IMG/VR virus record: IMGVR_UViG_3300024265_000086
Location: 1-47,249 of that record
Length of the DNA stretch: 47,249 nucleotides
DNA from: a virus
Reading direction: 5' to 3' (one strand)
This document shows positions 1-45,700 of the stretch, in pieces. The translations under genes and the position numbers were made by a program. The first letter of the stretch is position 1, and every line of letters begins with the position of its first letter. The notes beneath the pieces are model-generated. The model did no database searches and had not been told where the DNA came from. It was given only the letters and a program-made list of their open reading frames with translations.

Positions 1-891
1 GATCTGCCATTTCACTTTAAATGCCGTTGTACGGTCGATATAGCGATCGACTCGATGTCATACAGTAATCTAGTACCGTTAACACCACCGACCGCTAGGA
101 AGCCTTCTAGACCCCTTGAGCTTAAACCACCAAAAGCGAGAATCGCAACATTGAGAGATCGGATCGGCCAACTATTGCGAACTTCGATAATTCGCAAAAC
201 ATCTTTTACCCATGTTGAAGGTGAAAAGTTTGCGTTTTTAGAAATGCAATCGATACAACCGGGGGGCAAAAAAGCAATAACTGCTCTTTGGAAAACAGCG
301 GGAACTGAAAAAGCCGAATCTTCGTTTTATCGTTTAGATCGAGAATTGGGTGGAAAAACAATTGTCCCGCCAACAATAGCCAGGGATCCCGGCTTGGGAT
401 CTGGTGTTGGTACACTTCAACATTTTGAAAAACGTTGGAAGGTTACCGATAAAATTACAGACGCCCAGAAACAAAGAATTCGTTTACTAGATTTTGTTTC
501 TGGTAACAGCCAAAGAAGAAAAGGGAATATCTTAAAAACTGGCGCTGGTATAGCTGTTGTGAATAACGACGGTGGTTTTAAATCGGTAACTCCAAAAAAA
601 TATTACTACCCAACTTCGGATAAATTGAAAGATTTGAGCGCAACCGATGTAAAAAAATTGAAGAAAATCGGTTTGAAAAGAATTGCCGAAATCTTAGAAC
701 AAGAGGGCATTTCTAAAAAAGCCGCAAGATTAACACTTTTACGGGCGAAATTGGTAATCGATAAGCCCAAACTTTTAACCAAAAAGAAGACAAAAACCCT
801 TTGGAATGACCTAGAAAACAACCCCAAAAAACACTTAAAGTCTAAAGATGTTAAGAAGATAGATACCATTTTAGATACAATTTACAAGTAG
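1..891 (+). CDS. MuF-like minor head protein, 3' part, with C-terminal kinase-fold-like domain
   Basis: The frame is open from base 1, so the ATG at 55 is probably internal and the gene starts upstream of the window. The first visible residues, LPFHFKCRCTV, match the closing motif of SPP1 gp7/Mu gpF minor head proteins (P-x-H-x-x-C-R-C), which sit at the portal and may be injected. After a basic linker, about 120 residues resemble the PI3/4-kinase-like fold of the SCO1664 type: a lysine in ITALWK (codon near 292), then YRLDRELG, VPPT, GVGTLQ, and LLDFVSGN. The expected DRHxxN is QRRKGN (511-528) and the expected metal-binding IDxG appears as VNNDGG (near 559-576), so catalytic acids look lost. 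The last 90 residues are Lys-rich and predicted helical. MuF assignment is fairly firm; the kinase-like fold is inference from motif order. Confidence 0.72.
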   Translation, partial: DLPFHFKCRCTVDIAIDSMSYSNLVPLTPPTARKPSRPLELKPPKARIATLRDRIGQLLRTSIIRKTSFTHVEGEKFAFLEMQSIQPGGKKAITALWKTAGTEKAESSFYRLDRELGGKTIVPPTIARDPGLGSGVGTLQHFEKRWKVTDKITDAQKQRIRLLDFVSGNSQRRKGNILKTGAGIAVVNNDGGFKSVTPKKYYYPTSDKLKDLSATDVKKLKKIGLKRIAEILEQEGISKKAARLTLLRAKLVIDKPKLLTKKKTKTLWNDLENNPKKHLKSKDVKKIDTILDTIYK

Positions 892-980
892 CAGAATAGA
901 TCTATTTTACAGGCTTCTTTTCATTTCTCACAACTTTTATACTAATATCTAAATTAGAGTGTATTTTTCGAGGTTGAAAC

Positions 981-1505
981 ATGCCACGTAGAGCGATGAC
1001 AGCACAAAAATACGAACAATTAAAAGCTGAAAAACAGATCATTCCGGTTGAAAGTGATGAACCGAAAGAGCCGGTTGCAATCGCCAAAAATACAGAAGAA
1101 GCGGTTTCAGTAATTAAGGCATATGTCAAACTTGTAAAGTTAGCAAAAGAAGAACAAAAAGTTACCGGCGTTGTTTTAGAGCCGAATGTTTTTGACACGC
1201 AAAAAACGACTATTAGTGATGAAGTAATCCGAAAAGCGGCACATGGCTTTTTAGCTGGCTTCAATATAACAACCAAACTTGGTGTCCAACATAAAGATTT
1301 CAAAAAACCGTTTGAACTTTGCGAATCATATATTGCGCCGATCGATTTTGCGTTAGGTGATAAAACGATCAAAAAAGGATCATGGGTTGTAATCCTAAAA
1401 ATTCTAAGCAAGAAAATTTGGGACAGGATTAAAAAGGGCGAAATCACCGGTTTTTCAATCGGCGGAAAAGCCAAAATCAAAAAACTCAAAAAAGAGGCTG
1501 CATAA
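981..1505 (+). CDS. Prohead protease, XkdF-like
   Basis: The product would cleave scaffold and head proteins during capsid maturation. The 174-residue protein has the XkdF-like serine protease pattern: VVLEPNVFD near 64-72, an alpha-helical stretch with AAHGFL, His104 in GVQHKDF, ESYIAP at 115-120, KKGSWVV at 131-137, and GEITGFSIGG with Ser159 near the C terminus. His104 and Ser159 are the likely catalytic pair. The start is supported by GAGG seven bases upstream of the ATG. It lies between the MuF-like gene and the scaffold-like gene, the usual protease position, and is separated from the next ATG by a single base. An 89-base gap precedes it, containing an AT-rich stretch with a TATACT hexamer but no convincing -35 element. 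Family call is strong. Confidence 0.87.
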   Translation: MPRRAMTAQKYEQLKAEKQIIPVESDEPKEPVAIAKNTEEAVSVIKAYVKLVKLAKEEQKVTGVVLEPNVFDTQKTTISDEVIRKAAHGFLAGFNITTKLGVQHKDFKKPFELCESYIAPIDFALGDKTIKKGSWVVILKILSKKIWDRIKKGEITGFSIGGKAKIKKLKKEAA

Positions 1506-1506
1506 A

Positions 1507-2418
1507 ATGACCGAAGAAGTGGCTTTAGAAAAGGCGGAAAGTGTTGGTGTTGAACATGAATACACCGATTTGGAAGTTAACGAAATTTCAGTGGTAGATA
1601 GGCCAGCAAATCAAAAAGAATTTGCTGTAATCAAATGCGTTGGAAACAGCGCAACACAAAAAGGAGTGGAACCAATGGCCGATCAAGTAGCGAAATCTAC
1701 AGAAGAGGCTGCTAATGTCGAAGTGGTTCCTGTCGAAGTGGCCAAGAACGATGATGACTCGGCCATGGAGCAGGCGCTTGAAAACCTCGACACTATTTCG
1801 AAATCGATTGCGGGGTTAGCCGCTCAAGTCGAAGACGAAGAAGGCGGCAAAACCGAAACCGAAACAGAGGCGGAAAAGGCCGCCAAAAAAGAAACACCGG
1901 CAACGATCTTTGCCAACGCGTTGAAGGCAACCGGCGTTAAAGGCGAAGCGCTCAAAACCGCGCTCAAAAAGTACGAAAAAGTTTGTGCTTGTGGTTCGGC
2001 GACGGTTCAAAAGACCGAAACCAAAACCGAAACCGAAGGCGCCGAAACCGAAACCGAAGGGGACAACGATTTCATGGGGAATCTTGCGGCGGCGGTTACT
2101 AAAGCCAAGGTGTTGACCCCGAAACGGCTTGCGGCGTTAAAAGCGTTGCAAGAACAGTTGGCCAAGATGATCGGTGAAATGGAAGGAATCCCTCATTCCA
2201 AATCACCGAAAACCAAGGTTCCGAAAAACGCAAGTTTCGGCGCAAGCGGTCTAAGCACGATCACAAAAAGCTTCGAAACCATATCGACGGCGCTGAAAAC
2301 GCTAACTGGTCGAATCGAACAGATCGAAAACACCCGTCAAGGATCGAAAAGCCTTGGCGAAAGCGGCACTGTAACAACAAAAAAGGCGGATAAAGATCTT
2401 TGGGACAACGTTCTGTAA
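1507..2418 (+). CDS. Scaffold-like protein with XkdF-like N-terminal segment
   Basis: The 303-residue product starts with a segment ending in EISVVDRPANQKEF (26-39), a motif common in prohead protease and capsid-maturation proteins of this type. The rest is acidic, low-complexity and predicted largely helical: Ala/Glu-rich near 60-130, Thr-Glu repeats near 115-125 and 172-185, and a C-terminal helix-rich part near 255-285. That composition, and the position just before the major capsid gene, fit an internal scaffold. Codon usage in the second half is richer in GCG, GGC and GAA-ACC than in the protease gene. A strong internal ribosome site at 1660-1665 in the same frame suggests the scaffold part is also made alone. 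It could instead be a protease-scaffold fusion; only one of the family's motifs is visible. Confidence 0.68.
   Translation: MTEEVALEKAESVGVEHEYTDLEVNEISVVDRPANQKEFAVIKCVGNSATQKGVEPMADQVAKSTEEAANVEVVPVEVAKNDDDSAMEQALENLDTISKSIAGLAAQVEDEEGGKTETETEAEKAAKKETPATIFANALKATGVKGEALKTALKKYEKVCACGSATVQKTETKTETEGAETETEGDNDFMGNLAAAVTKAKVLTPKRLAALKALQEQLAKMIGEMEGIPHSKSPKTKVPKNASFGASGLSTITKSFETISTALKTLTGRIEQIENTRQGSKSLGESGTVTTKKADKDLWDNVL
1675..2418 (+). CDS. Probable nested scaffold product from internal in-frame start
   Basis: Within the preceding gene, AAAGGAG at 1659-1665 stands nine bases before ATG 1675, in the same frame (codon 57). Translation from here gives a 247-residue acidic, helix-rich protein that lacks the VDRPAN segment and starts MADQVAKST. 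Phage lambda C/Nu3 is the classical precedent for a scaffold made from an internal start within a longer protease-containing gene. The ribosome site here is better than that of the full-length gene, whose ATG follows the previous stop almost directly. Expression is inferred from the sequence only. Confidence 0.6.
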   Translation: MADQVAKSTEEAANVEVVPVEVAKNDDDSAMEQALENLDTISKSIAGLAAQVEDEEGGKTETETEAEKAAKKETPATIFANALKATGVKGEALKTALKKYEKVCACGSATVQKTETKTETEGAETETEGDNDFMGNLAAAVTKAKVLTPKRLAALKALQEQLAKMIGEMEGIPHSKSPKTKVPKNASFGASGLSTITKSFETISTALKTLTGRIEQIENTRQGSKSLGESGTVTTKKADKDLWDNVL

Positions 2419-2464
2419 AAGAATCGTCCTAGACACCTTTTAACGTAATAGGAGAAAACACAAA

Positions 2465-3673
2465 ATGGGCAATATCGTAAATGAGGAATTAGTGCACGAA
2501 GAAGTGCAAAAAGCTATTACCGCCGCTGATGATCTCGCAACGGGTGGTAAACTCAACGCCGCGCAAAGCGATCGTTTCATCGATTATGTGATCGATGAAA
2601 CGGTTTTGAAACAAAACGCGCGGACCGTGCGATTCCGCAACGAAACGCTAAACATCGACAAAATCGGAATCGGCAGACGAGCGGCCGTTCCAAAGGTCGA
2701 AGCAAAGGATCCGGGTGTTCGACGCGGGATCACAACTTCGCAAGTTCCTTTGACCCCTTCAGAGGTGATGGTGCCAATTGAGATCTCGGATAATTTCCGG
2801 GAGTTGAACATCGAAGGCGACAACGTAACGGATACCATCATCCGTTTATTCGCCACCCAACTGGCCAACGATCTCGAAGAACTCTATTTGATCGGTGATA
2901 CGGTCGGTCCGGCAGTGCTCGAAGGTGACATTGTCGACAGCGGTTCAACAACGTTGTACATCAAAGATTCTTATCTGGCGTTGCAGAACGGTTGGCAAAA
3001 ACTCGCAGACGGCGGACACCTCGTTGACGCACTCGGTTTGAACATTGGTGCAAGCGTGTTTTCGCAAGCGCTGCGAGCAATGCCGACCAAGTTCCGCAGA
3101 AACAGAAAAAATCTACGCTTCTTCATGAGCCCGGATCTGGCTCAACTCTACGCTGAAAAGCTTTCGACCCGTGCGACCAAAGGCGGCGACGATGCAATGG
3201 CTGGAATGATTATCACACCTTTCGGTGTGCCGATCGTCGAAGTTCCGTTGTGGGATTTCCAACCAAAACAGGTCGAACATGTCGCATTGCCGGGCACAAC
3301 GGTTGTGGCGCTGAAATACAAGAACATCGTTGATGTTGTTGTGTTGCCTGAAACACTCGACGATACCCCCACAACGCCTTTCATCTCGGGAACTGATTAC
3401 ACCCTAGATGCGGCGGCCGGGACGATTGCGCGTGACGGTGGGGGTTCTATCGGCGACGGGGACACGGTCAAGGTGACCTACGGGGCGAGCCCGCAAATAA
3501 TGCTCACCCACATGAACAACTTCATTGTCGGGATCGGGCGTGATGTTCGGATCGAGAAAGACCGCGACATCTACAAAACGGTCGATCAATACGCGATCAC
3601 GGCGAAAGTAGCGGTCCAAATCGAAGAAGTCGACGCGATCGTGAAGGTGTACAACATTGGCACGGGCGTTTAA
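2465..3673 (+). CDS. Major capsid protein, HK97 fold
   Basis: The 402-residue product forms the capsid shell. Position after protease and scaffold, strong AGGAG ribosome site, Ala/Lys/Arg-balanced composition, and motifs support this: an N-terminal helix region, RFRNETLNIDKIGIGRR, VPLTPSEVMVPIEISDNFRE, then IRLFATQLANDLEELYLIGD, typical of the spine helix, and NLRFFMSPDLAQLY plus GVPIVEVPLW of the A domain. Residues about 300-342, with GTDYTLDAAAGTIARDGG and DTVKVTYGAS, look like a small beta insertion inside the C-terminal half; the same pattern occurs as an add-on in other phage structural proteins. After it the fold resumes with FIVGIGRDVRIEKDRD. Codon usage is richer in preferred GC-ending codons than most neighbours, consistent with high expression. 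Confidence 0.92.
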   Translation: MGNIVNEELVHEEVQKAITAADDLATGGKLNAAQSDRFIDYVIDETVLKQNARTVRFRNETLNIDKIGIGRRAAVPKVEAKDPGVRRGITTSQVPLTPSEVMVPIEISDNFRELNIEGDNVTDTIIRLFATQLANDLEELYLIGDTVGPAVLEGDIVDSGSTTLYIKDSYLALQNGWQKLADGGHLVDALGLNIGASVFSQALRAMPTKFRRNRKNLRFFMSPDLAQLYAEKLSTRATKGGDDAMAGMIITPFGVPIVEVPLWDFQPKQVEHVALPGTTVVALKYKNIVDVVVLPETLDDTPTTPFISGTDYTLDAAAGTIARDGGGSIGDGDTVKVTYGASPQIMLTHMNNFIVGIGRDVRIEKDRDIYKTVDQYAITAKVAVQIEEVDAIVKVYNIGTGV

Positions 3674-3770
3674 GTAACCGGCGCCATTGCCAAGCTTTAA
3701 CAGAAGGATAGATAAACAGAGAAAACAAGCCGCTGATTGATTACAAGGGCGGCGCAAGAAAGGCGAAAAA

Positions 3771-4109
3771 ATGCCAAGGGCAAAATGTGTATTAACAAGA
3801 GGGCCGAGAACCCACACTGTTAAAAACAGGACATTTAAACGAGGCGAATCGCAAACCCTCACAACCGATCACGAAATCAATTACTACAGATCAACCTACG
3901 GATTCACGGTCACAATGTTGGAAGGGGACAAGAAGGAAAAGACCGCGAAGAAAACGAAAAAGCGAATCTTCACCGAAGAAGAGTTGTTTGCGAAGAAAAA
4001 AACCAAGTTGGTTACCATGGCTGAAAAACACCAAGTTCTTTTGACCGGTAGGGAAAAGAAACCCGAATTGGTCGAAGCGATTTTAGCCGCTCAAGACTTC
4101 GAGGATTAA
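3771..4109 (+). CDS. Small basic head-region protein with possible SAP/HeH-like C terminus
   Basis: The 112-residue product is not recognised as a named family. The first 50 residues (CVLTRGPRTHTVKNRTFKRG) look like a small beta domain. A Lys-rich linker follows. Residues about 67-110, with LFAKKKTKLVTMAEKHQVL and KPELVEAILAAQDF, match the helix-extended-loop-helix pattern of SAP/HeH domains, in which a Lys-Leu-Val-x-x-Ala helix and a second Lys-x-Glu-Leu-Val-x-Ala-Ile-Leu helix bind nucleic acid or partners. Such short proteins often follow capsid genes. The ribosome site is AAAGGCG, six bases before the ATG. A 97-base gap to the capsid gene contains a weak GCCGC/GCGGC inverted repeat. Confidence 0.62.
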   Translation: MPRAKCVLTRGPRTHTVKNRTFKRGESQTLTTDHEINYYRSTYGFTVTMLEGDKKEKTAKKTKKRIFTEEELFAKKKTKLVTMAEKHQVLLTGREKKPELVEAILAAQDFED

Positions 4110-4113
4110 AAAA

Positions 4114-4422
4114 ATGAAACAAGTGACAACGCGTCAAGTTTCGCCTTTTCAAATCGAATTCCCGAAGACGAAAAAAGTTAAGGATAAAAAAGATCCGGTA
4201 AAGTTCGAAAGAACAAAAGACGGTGCCCTACATTTTCGTCCGGGGACGGTTGTGATTTTGACTGATGACGAGTATGATTTTCTGCAAAAAGACATATCTC
4301 AAAACAGAAAATTCATATTTCAAGGCGAGGTGAAAGAGCCGAAAAAAGCGAAATGGCCAACACCAACAACGCCAACAACGCCAAAAGCACAAGAGCCGAA
4401 AAAGGCGAAGAAGAAAAGTTAA
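4114..4422 (+). CDS. Small protein with Pro/Thr- and Lys-rich tail
   Basis: The 102-residue product is not recognised. Residues 1-75 contain a Lys-rich strand region and the phrase FRPGTVVILTDDEYDFLQKD, a pattern seen in short head-completion or accessory proteins coded next to capsid genes. The end is a low-complexity tail with tandem TPT units and AKKKS, probably disordered. It starts four bases after the previous stop, so translation is likely coupled. Structural accessory role is inferred from position only. Confidence 0.55.
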   Translation: MKQVTTRQVSPFQIEFPKTKKVKDKKDPVKFERTKDGALHFRPGTVVILTDDEYDFLQKDISQNRKFIFQGEVKEPKKAKWPTPTTPTTPKAQEPKKAKKKS

Positions 4423-4928: not shown

Positions 4929-5495
4929 TTGGCAACTAGTTTACAAAGGTTAAAACAGATAGCAAAGCCGGATAGCTTTGACGATCAAAAAAGCGCTGCG
5001 CAAATTGCAAATTCAGAAAACAATTCTGTAGATTTGGCAGAATTTGCCGAAGCGCTATTGTCACAGTTTAAACGGATCATCCATGGGAATCAATCGGGCA
5101 ACTGGTTTGACGATCCAACTTCTGTTTTTGGCGGCGATGCTTCGTTATTTTCATTATTCCAATCGGCAAGCCCGGAAATACAAGTCGATTTACAAGACAA
5201 CAACATTGAAATAATTGTTGTTGGCGACAAAACAGTTTTCCGAAAAATAATCTGGAATTATTCTTTTGAACTACCGATTGGTGATAAAGCTTTAACCGGA
5301 TGTTTCGTTTTTAATCACAATGGCACAAATGTTGATTTAGATAATCACTATTCGTACATACCGCCAGAAATCACAGGTGTAACTTTCAACGCATCGATAG
5401 TCGGAAACGATATTCGATTAACCGTAACAACAAACGGCGTTGGGGAACACCCAAAACTAAGGTATCGTGCCGTGACCATAAAGCTTGCGGCGTAA
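4929..5495 (+). CDS. Probable virion structural protein
   Basis: The 188-residue product is not recognised. It starts with TTG at 4929; AAAGG lies six bases before it, across the previous stop. Residues 1-65 are helical (LQRLKQIAKPDSFDD, then FAEALLSQFKRIIHG), and the rest is beta-rich with EIIVVGDKTVFRK, YSYIPPEITGVTFNASIVGND and a Thr/Val-rich end. A helical anchor followed by a beta domain is what one expects of a decoration or fibre-adaptor protein. It begins the block of fibre-like genes that continues to about 12.1 kb. Confidence 0.55.
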   Translation: MATSLQRLKQIAKPDSFDDQKSAAQIANSENNSVDLAEFAEALLSQFKRIIHGNQSGNWFDDPTSVFGGDASLFSLFQSASPEIQVDLQDNNIEIIVVGDKTVFRKIIWNYSFELPIGDKALTGCFVFNHNGTNVDLDNHYSYIPPEITGVTFNASIVGNDIRLTVTTNGVGEHPKLRYRAVTIKLAA

Positions 5496-39521: not shown

Positions 39522-39550
39522 GATTAGAATGATTAGGATAAGTTGGATTA
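39522..39550 (+). repeat. Short GATTA repeats after winged-helix gene
   Basis: GATTA at 39522, 39531 and 39546 and GATAA at 39537 lie in an AT-rich run just before the frame starting at 39551. They could be protein sites or simple AT-rich sequence. Confidence 0.3.
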
Positions 39551-39793
39551 ATGGCGACATATAAAAAACTCGAAGGCGCTTCGAGTAGTCACAAGGTCGC
39601 TACTCTGATTTTATTTTTTACGATAAATTATCGAATAGTCGTTAAGAAGTGGTCAAAAAAAACGACGGCGTTTAACTCCGAAACATTTCATAATCAGTTC
39701 AAAAAGCACTCTGTTGTAACGAATAGTCGAAAGGTCGAAAAAGTGAACACGAAAAATTTTTTGCGCTTTATATCATCGGAAAAACCCCAATGA
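39551..39793 (+). CDS. Doubtful small ORF over the repeat and hairpin region
   Basis: A frame of 80 codons opens at ATG 39551. Its product is basic and polar (MATYKKLEGASSSHKVATLI, TINYRIVVKKWSKKTTAF) with no recognised domain. It lacks a ribosome site at normal spacing, contains a terminator-like hairpin and three DNA-level repeats in different frames, and its base pattern does not look like the neighbouring genes. It ends four bases past the start of the next gene. It may be a real small gene, but I think the DNA or RNA structure is more likely the functional part. Confidence 0.3.
   Translation: MATYKKLEGASSSHKVATLILFFTINYRIVVKKWSKKTTAFNSETFHNQFKKHSVVTNSRKVEKVNTKNFLRFISSEKPQ
39568..39619 (+). 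promoter_or_regulatory. Overlapping hairpins with T-run (attenuator-like)
   Basis: Hairpin 1: ACTCGAAG-GCG-CTTCGAGT (39568-39586), perfect. Hairpin 2: GAGTAG (39583-39588) with CTACTC (39600-39605), followed by TGATTTTATTTTTTA. The two share 39583-39586, so they exclude each other, as in anti-terminator and terminator pairs. A further palindrome, CGATAA-A-TTATCG, follows at 39621-39633. Confidence 0.55.
39582..39738 (+). repeat. Three direct repeats with CGARTAGTC core (iteron-like)
   Basis: CGAGTAGTC at 39582, and CGAATAGTC at 39632 and 39720. Copies 1 and 3 continue as ACAAGGTCG and GAAAGGTCG; copy 2 as GTTAAGAAGTGGTC. Spacing is 50 and 88 bases, and copies are not all in one codon frame, so the repeat is at DNA level. 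Their place between the winged-helix gene and the loader genes fits an origin or operator. Confidence 0.55.
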
Positions 39794-44614: not shown

Positions 44615-45700
44615 ATGAAAAAAAGAAGTCTCAAGATCGTCATTGTTGGCGGCGGTGTAACCGGTTTGATGTGTGCGCATCAATTTTTAAAGTGTGCTGA
44701 TGTTACCGTGATAGAAAAAGATCGTTTGGGTGGAGATTTTTCAAAAGGTGAAAACAAATATACACAAAGAACTGATCCTTTTTGTGCTTTGTTGGATTCT
44801 ATTGACGTTCCATATTCGGTTTTTTTTGTCAAAAATGGCATTTTGTTGAAAAATAAAATAGAGAAAATGGGACAAGACTTTTTCAAAAAAAGTAAGATGA
44901 ACAGACTTGAGCGTTTAAATGACGATCATTTTAGGAAAACGCGTTTATTGGAACCGCCGAAAAATCTAAAAAACTCAATGACTGAGCCAGCGCTTTTAAA
45001 AGTGTTTGGCGCTATCACAAAAATATCAGAAAGAAAGGCAATCAGAACAGACTCTGTTATGCTTCTTGAAAGTCTTGTTTATCATCTCGACGGGGTTAAA
45101 AGAGTTTTCTCAAAAGTGGTTGGGATTGGTATTAAGAGTTTGAAAGTTGAAAATGGAGAAACCATATATTTTGATTTTTTAATTTTTACTATTCCATTAT
45201 GGGAAATCAAAAAAATCGTATGGTGGAAAATTGGTTACTATAACGCAGTTAGGCGAAACGTTTTGTTTGTTCAACCAAAATTTCCAAAAACATTTTTGAA
45301 AAAAAATGGTTGTAAAACCGAAATTGAATTTTCATCAGATCGGTTTGCTGCGTGGGATTACATTTATACTCCATATACAATCGGCGGTGTTGTTTATAGG
45401 ATGTCACCATTTGATAACGGCTATGCAATAGAGGTGAACGGCGAATTGACAACAGAAAGGAAAGAGCGGATTTATTCAGATCTGTATTTTCTTTTTCCCG
45501 ATAATTGGCATTTTATAAAAGATCCGGTTGTTTTGAAAGGTCACATGTTACAAAGCGAAAGTGTTGATTTTTCAAAATGGCCAAAGAATATTTGTGCGAT
45601 CGGTCGTTATGCTCGTTGGGATGTTAACGCAACGTTAGACGTTTCTCTTGATAAAGTGTTAGAGGTTAAAACAAATTGGGGTTTTTGTGACGAAAACTAA
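44615..45700 (+). CDS. FAD-dependent oxidoreductase (amine oxidase/UGM-like fold)
   Basis: The 361-residue product opens with LKIVIVGGGVTGLMCAHQF, a Rossmann-type FAD site (GGGVTG at 12-17), followed by VTVIEKDRLGGDF with Glu34 for the ribose. The end, NICAIGRYARWDVNATLDVSLD then KVLEV, matches the second FAD contact, seen as GRY-x-x-W in UDP-galactopyranose mutase-like and amine-oxidase-like proteins. The middle (IKKIVWWKIGYYNAVRRNVL, AWDYIYTPYTIGGVVYRMSP) is the substrate domain. It lies between a Cys-rich gene and DNA polymerase, overlapping the latter by 14 bases. The reaction is unknown; sugar-nucleotide or DNA-base modification are options. Confidence 0.72.
   Translation: MKKRSLKIVIVGGGVTGLMCAHQFLKCADVTVIEKDRLGGDFSKGENKYTQRTDPFCALLDSIDVPYSVFFVKNGILLKNKIEKMGQDFFKKSKMNRLERLNDDHFRKTRLLEPPKNLKNSMTEPALLKVFGAITKISERKAIRTDSVMLLESLVYHLDGVKRVFSKVVGIGIKSLKVENGETIYFDFLIFTIPLWEIKKIVWWKIGYYNAVRRNVLFVQPKFPKTFLKKNGCKTEIEFSSDRFAAWDYIYTPYTIGGVVYRMSPFDNGYAIEVNGELTTERKERIYSDLYFLFPDNWHFIKDPVVLKGHMLQSESVDFSKWPKNICAIGRYARWDVNATLDVSLDKVLEVKTNWGFCDEN

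Follow-up and report, generated by a model that had tools for sequence, protein, structure and literature searches.

The window analysed here, a virus record, spans 47,249 bases and opens with a reading frame at positions 1-891, which is cut off at the left end of the record and forms the 3' part of a longer gene. The complete gene lies at L001:4972-6885 and encodes 637 amino acids, and an identical 637-residue frame is present in L002. L001 (a contig of 104,305 bases) and L002 (44,066 bases) are both IMG/VR records and were taken to represent the same phage as the window. Their two 12,882-base loci are identical, and the first 6,888 bases of the window agree with both except for four mismatches, all among its initial five bases. 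We take these mismatches at positions 1-5 as a contig-end error; since four of the first five bases deviate from two records, the first two residues translated from the window are unreliable. The features of the locus, in window coordinates, are as follows.

1-75, plus strand: end of the MuF domain with its closing motif PFHFKCRC (nucleotides 7-30); from the sequence and comparison with L001 and L002
76-144, plus strand: proline-rich linker, roughly where the protein of the tail-less relative L007 terminates; from comparison with L007
145-888, plus strand: predicted kinase-fold tail domain, residues 49-296, catalytically degenerate; from profiles, predicted structure and a shuffle control
292-294, plus strand: K98, the conserved lysine of ALWK, kept; from alignment with relatives
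307-318, plus strand: E103 to E106, both glutamates kept, between which relatives carry an additional 13-16 residues (...LRxGIKxGTYHxRE); from alignment
418-420, plus strand: Q140 of (S/T)LQ, kept; from alignment
505-528, plus strand: degenerate catalytic loop N169-S-Q-R-R-K-G-N176, against NDDRHxxN in relatives; from alignment
562-564, plus strand: N188, replacing the metal-binding aspartate of AIDNG; from alignment
892-980, plus strand: 89-nucleotide gap from which the partner gene is absent; from comparison with intact-kinase records
981-1505, plus strand: the next gene, an XkdF-like prohead protease (PF14550); from the PF14550 match

At the far end of the window (44615-45700), a gene resembling FAD-dependent oxidoreductases is located amid replication genes, directly before the DNA polymerase III alpha gene.

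Profile matches and gene order identify the 637-residue protein as a MuF minor head protein. Its upstream part matches TIGR01641 (E 2.5e-8; 34.3 bits, below the cut-off of 39.65), several PHROG head families (best E 5.3e-9) and PF04233 (E 0.0023; 19.1 bits, below the cut-off of 29.6), the last of which is exceeded by relatives such as L033, L047 and L026. An earlier note on this DNA had proposed that a MuF closing motif stands ahead of a kinase-like segment and that a MuF domain precedes codon 1. The motif is present and reads PPFHFKCRC, and the TIGR01641 and PHROG matches place the MuF domain in the full gene upstream of the window. The portal gene (P0003, PF04860, E 5.7e-15) ends at L001:5015 and thus overlaps the MuF gene, which starts at 4972. 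The order in this phage is terminase, portal, MuF-tail gene and XkdF-like protease. In a syntenic relative whose terminase is 66% identical (L007), the MuF protein ends shortly past the CRC motif and has no tail, so the tail is an add-on that is dispensable for the head protein. The protein resembles SPP1 gp7 and other MuF proteins (TIGR01641, PF04233) in its MuF domain and in its position directly after the portal gene. SPP1 gp7 is described as a portal-binding protein, few copies of which are directed to the inside of the procapsid and which aids the initiation of infection (PMC6316719). It is reported to have no toxin domain (PMC5576092), whereas the window's protein bears a kinase-fold tail.

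In 50,697 phage records, tblastn with the window domain as query found no match at an E limit of 10; an intact relative likewise gave no match in phage records at an E limit of 0.01. Because the tail itself found nothing, the family was reached via the portal gene, by a portal alignment search from which the best 80 of 563 confirmed relative loci were taken. Among these best 80 of 563, five loci besides the window's phage have MuF proteins with matching tails, so that the fusion the earlier note suggested looking for in other MuF proteins does occur. These five tails carry the catalytic loop N(D/G)DRHxxN and the metal site AID(N/H)G. Further searches enlarged the set to 21 distinct kinase domains, to which two bacterial contigs contributed three; the sample is skewed toward intact members because the pattern used for enlarging it contained NDDRH. 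A profile built from 16 relatives, with the window left out, scores 103.9 bits against the window and at best 5.1 bits against 200 shuffles. In a pattern-limited search covering the genomes of 84,980 species, no more than two loci came up, both weak and neither with a MuF match.

From profiles and predicted structure, the last ~250 residues of the protein are assigned to a kinase-fold domain nearest to the type II PI4-kinases. A profile of six tails matches human PI4K2A chains (E 1.9e-6), and PF00454 matches five of the six family members scanned. TIGR03843, the SCO1664 family, matches all six (best E 2.2e-13). The likeness to SCO1664 that the earlier note had seen is therefore real at the level of the family, but it is distant: the window domain itself scores 16.7 bits, far under the curated TIGR03843 cut-off of 172.4 bits. 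HipA_2 (PF20613) matched one member of six, weakly (E 0.15). The PHROG family phrog_3162, for which no function is given, matches 7 of 18 family members (best E 4.6e-8), which makes it probable that known phage proteins include some of the relatives. Weak matches, to one family member each, were given by two models of a defence library (0.0016 and 0.0097). Matches to DUF7803 (E 0.067) and to a beta-lactamase (E 0.21) were taken as chance.

The model of the window domain has a pLDDT of 82.1 and a pTM of 0.84; its alignment of 17 relatives included intact ones, so it may borrow their fold. VIA-align places type II PI4-kinase on top (9hhm_B, PI4K2B; Z 17.0 over 215 residues at 3.8 Å), followed by Fam20 (5xoo_A, Z 14.0) and the H. 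pylori kinase CtkA (Z 12.4), and lower by a bacterial kinase complex (7vkb, Z 10.6) and HipA chains (Z 9.8). Foldseek returned PI3K chains (E 2e-5, TM 0.38), with TM-scores of 0.31-0.46 and mostly high rmsd among the 50 matches listed. Since these TM-scores are low, the fold assignment leans on VIA-align and on sequence. For the intact relative L101 the model reaches a pLDDT of 89.9, a Foldseek E of 3e-8 to PI4K2A and a VIA-align Z of 20.4 to PI4K II. The window model shows helices past the active site, and the DRH of relatives carries no insert. The kinase-fold link drawn in the earlier note is thus borne out by the predicted structure, and with a MuF domain upstream neither an unrelated fold nor a missing head domain contradicts it. 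Type II PI4-kinases and SCO1664 share this fold with the family, and LQ, N.DRHxxN and AIDNG are common to them and the intact relatives; the window's copy differs in having no catalytic residues. FAM20A is a pseudokinase partner of FAM20C and an inactive member of the same fold group. Fam20 forms the second group of fold matches. A second, active family kinase that would make up a FAM20A/FAM20C-like pair was sought in the 104-kb record and not found.

By alignment, the residues needed for phosphotransfer are lost from the window's kinase domain, which we consider dead. The catalytic aspartate is replaced by glutamine (Q171) and the metal-binding aspartate by asparagine (N188), both as the earlier note had read them. 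Further changes go beyond that reading: the histidine of the loop is an arginine (R173), the GxGVN loop (G-loop) is lost, although a few relatives vary there too, and the 13-16 residues preceding helix C are deleted. The loop thus reads N169-S-Q171-R172-R173-K-G-N176 in place of the relatives' NDDRHxxN, and V-V-N188-N-D stands in place of AIDNG. The landmarks are present in the order first noted, namely ALWK (K98), VPPT, LQ (Q140) and D164-F-V-S-G-N169, and K98, E103, E106, Q140, D164, N169, R172 and N176 are all kept. The degenerate G-loop argues against ordinary ATP binding.

The loss is confined to one phage among those collected. Asp-Arg-His and the metal aspartate are intact in 20 of the 21 distinct domains, the sole exception being the window's phage. 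The portal-based sample, which is free of the NDDRH bias, contains six distinct kinase tails, five of them intact (best 80 of 563 loci), and searches with patterns outside the catalytic loop gave 12 + 4 loci and one extra group, also intact. Of the 33 columns in which 90% or more of 16 relatives agree, the window keeps 16 and has changed or lost 17; in a leave-one-out comparison each other relative retains 78-100% of such columns. Continued enzymatic activity through an unusual active site, for instance in a different transfer reaction, is improbable. The kinase-fold proteins SelO and SidJ reportedly perform other transfer reactions with rearranged sites, and here the Lys-Glu pair of the ATP site and the loop residue Asn176 are retained and D190 lies two positions past the lost metal aspartate. 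Against this, the G-loop, the catalytic aspartate, the histidine and the metal aspartate are all altered, and the partner gene that accompanies intact kinases is absent.

In the relatives, a conserved gene of ~80 codons occupies an extra stretch after the kinase frame. It directly adjoins the kinase in all 17 intact-kinase records (E 1e-38 to 8.5e-9; 21 records searched), which represent 16 distinct kinase domains; the alignment used to search for the partner drew on 14 of these same 17 records. By profile search it is absent from all three records of the window's phage (window, L001 and L002) and from L007, and it is missing from the loci of all 54 distinct MuF genes that have no kinase and are followed by 400 bases or more of sequence, these controls including L095, whose tail partially and weakly matches the kinase profile (E 0.0005). 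A search from the partner alone returned nine loci, every one of them on a contig where a MuF-kinase gene had been found before. Eleven of 13 distinct kinase genes with a MuF match have the partner in the locus; the two exceptions are L104, whose record ends 51 bases past the gene and whose twin L106 has the partner, and L001, which has none. In the extra intact group the partner is present in both contigs long enough to cover its position. As the 104-kb record may be incomplete, a partner could lie elsewhere in this phage's genome. A partner-like match in the window (39542-39790, 15.6 bits) was set aside, as the conserved DG..F...L core is absent from it, and one in L001 and L002 (15.9 bits) falls within the terminase frame.

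Where it was found, the protease match starts 409-1,900 bases past the kinase frame in relatives and 93 bases past it in the window's phage; a second measure of the kinase-protease distance gives 406-4,364 against 204. Long gaps before the protease also occur in several kinase-less loci, so distance alone is not telling. In L113 the partner (L113:5846-6109) runs on the minus strand, converging with the kinase gene, an arrangement not shared by the other records read, so it need not belong to the late operon. The kinase-partner pair is also found on proteins with no detected MuF profile match (L110, L114, L115 and L119), which suggests that the two genes form a mobile cassette; in L110, L114 and L115 a CRC-type motif can be seen by eye ahead of the tail. 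Pfam and PDB searches with the partner gave no convincing match, and hence no convincing support for its being HipS or a HipA N-terminal domain, an identity that was considered. In L117 a long frame after the partner gene (L117:6205-7857) resembles, by eye only, a DNA adenine methylase.

As read from their genes, the relatives carry two-gene cassettes of an intact kinase tail and a dedicated partner of ~80 amino acids, and the window's phage has neither the partner nor the catalytic residues. Such a joint absence would follow if the partner serves to keep an active kinase in check. MuF toxins with small adjacent immunity genes have been described for temperate phages (PMC5576092), where a small frame is reported to follow 89.4% of 191 MuF toxin genes (PMC5576092); Bxa and Apk2 are described as examples with immunity genes (PMC11699363). 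The intact kinase with its small gene fits this layout, and we therefore infer an effector kinase and an inhibitor gene: in its active form the system is probably a MuF effector-immunity cassette whose kinase is of a class not found in the literature searched.

The tail frame is open throughout in the window's phage. In a neutral model, changing about half of the conserved sites takes ~0.3 substitutions per base, and at that divergence the frame stays open in ~0.05% of 4,000 runs of what is a simple substitution model started from the present-day sequence. The kinase end branch of the window's phage is the longest of 11 (2.18 against 0.08-1.76), while its MuF end branch, at 0.73, is unremarkable among the others (0.08-1.12); several nodes of the trees are poorly supported. 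Its mean kinase distance is 1.79 times its mean MuF distance, but L020, whose site is intact, reaches 1.83. A longest kinase branch is also expected under relaxed constraint. This branch, the 17 of 33 conserved sites changed or lost, the absent partner gene and the dispensability of the tail shown by L007 would all fit a vestige, that is, a kinase that recently lost both function and partner and is drifting toward loss as in the tail-less relatives. We regard this as rather unlikely, for simulated drift so rarely keeps such a frame open, K98, E103, E106, Q140, N169, R172 and N176 are retained, and the kinase fold is confidently predicted.

Since drift alone poorly explains the open frame, we favour a retained pseudokinase. 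Given also that the tail is dispensable, we favour over a vestige, with a probability of roughly 0.55, the reading that it is disarmed and kept for binding a host protein or a nucleotide and not for catalysis. Retention is judged here from one lineage and a simple model, all three records being identical over the compared stretch apart from the window's first five bases; the searches turned up no close strain that differs in the tail.

Zeta toxins are P-loop kinases and do not have the protein/lipid kinase fold. MuF-fused zeta-toxin-like kinases, which share the kinase-MuF fusion with the window's family, have been described as phosphorylating cell-wall precursor sugars (PMC5512222). Other known MuF tails include nucleases, peptidases, ADP-ribosyltransferases, glutamine deaminases and alarmone synthetases (PMC5576092, PMC11699363). 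The word 'kinase' is absent from the main text of Jamet 2017 (PMC5576092), where many C-terminal extensions, including Ct_MAD, are given without an assigned function, so the kinase tail may overlap with some of them. Among the papers listed, as covered by their titles and the openings of their abstracts, we found no description of a MuF fusion to a PI4-kinase-like fold.

MuF polymorphic toxins such as Apk2 and Bxa share with the window's protein a C-terminal tail of enzyme fold, and with the intact relatives an adjacent small gene. They differ from it in that the window's tail has a kinase fold, is apparently dead and has no small gene, and in that its record has no integrase match. It is quite improbable that the family is a polymorphic toxin serving competition among lysogens, with the window's copy as an inactivated allele. 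The small gene beside each intact kinase is the reported MuF toxin-immunity layout (PMC5576092, PMC11699363), and a tyrosine integrase match occurs in 2 of the 21 records and a resolvase match in one. On the other side, the 104-kb record, possibly incomplete, has no integrase or resolvase match (PF00589, PF00239), 15 of the 17 intact-kinase records, which may be fragments, have no integrase match, and the genomes of the 84,980 species (pattern-limited) gave nothing beyond the two weak loci. Enzyme tails on MuF proteins in phages lacking temperate features are not new (PMC7302621): MuF-VIP2 fusions are described in Microbacterium phages, one cluster of which has no temperate features and another of which has a homologue lacking the tail (PMC7302621). 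These fusions share an enzyme tail on MuF with the window's protein; theirs is an ADP-ribosyltransferase and the window's a kinase fold. A precedent for a dead MuF tail is offered by phage Mu gp30, in which the tail, a PBECR domain, is described as inactive (PMC5512222); its fold is RNase-like, where that of the window's tail is a kinase fold.

Tails of at least 80 residues are present in 36 of the 78 distinct MuF frames collected, a set that includes loci fetched for carrying the kinase. ADP-ribosyltransferase tails are found in L021 and L033 by Pfam and in L020 and L024 by alignment, on the MuF frames L021:5549-8431, L033:1463-3718, L020:7828-10506 and L024:7765-10581. Two of these proteins combine the transferase with the kinase, which comes second in L020 and first in L024; in L021 and L033 the transferase copies appear repeated by eye. 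The tail of L042:7668-9695 matches an acetyltransferase (GNAT) family above cut-off, and that of L032:7587-9665 clusters with it. In a cluster of eight MuF tails, seven of which were aligned, HExxH is present in six of the seven; the seventh, L047:7646-9685, has RQTMR at the motif and looks catalytically dead too. Two further frames have extra sequence in or before the MuF part, L056:7726-10413 with a weak methyltransferase match below cut-off and L063:5587-8685 with its MuF match split in two.

For the retained pseudokinase that we favour, the MuF part would bind the portal, as SPP1 gp7 does, leaving few copies of the tail inside the head, and by the same analogy these copies would enter the cell at infection. 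In the relatives, the partner would keep the kinase in check inside the producing cell, and after entry the kinase might phosphorylate a host target. In the window's phage, the tail would be retained for binding either a nucleotide or a host protein, which could be the former target or a regulator; once disarmed, the tail would need no immunity partner. More tentatively, and with clearly less confidence, large phages may carry a head-borne effector system, undescribed in the literature searched, that consists of a PI4-kinase-like MuF kinase and a small inhibitor gene. The window's phage might then inject a disarmed pseudokinase that binds the same host target, or the inhibitor protein of a rival phage, and blocks or misdirects it.

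The family adds to the enzyme tails on phage head proteins a kinase class not found in the literature searched, and its small partner gene is a candidate inhibitor that is directly testable. The window's phage offers a natural experiment, as the only lineage found without the catalytic residues is also the one without the partner, a coincidence that restraint of the kinase by the partner would predict. Should the dead tail be kept for binding, the protein or ligand that it binds could show which host target the entire family has.
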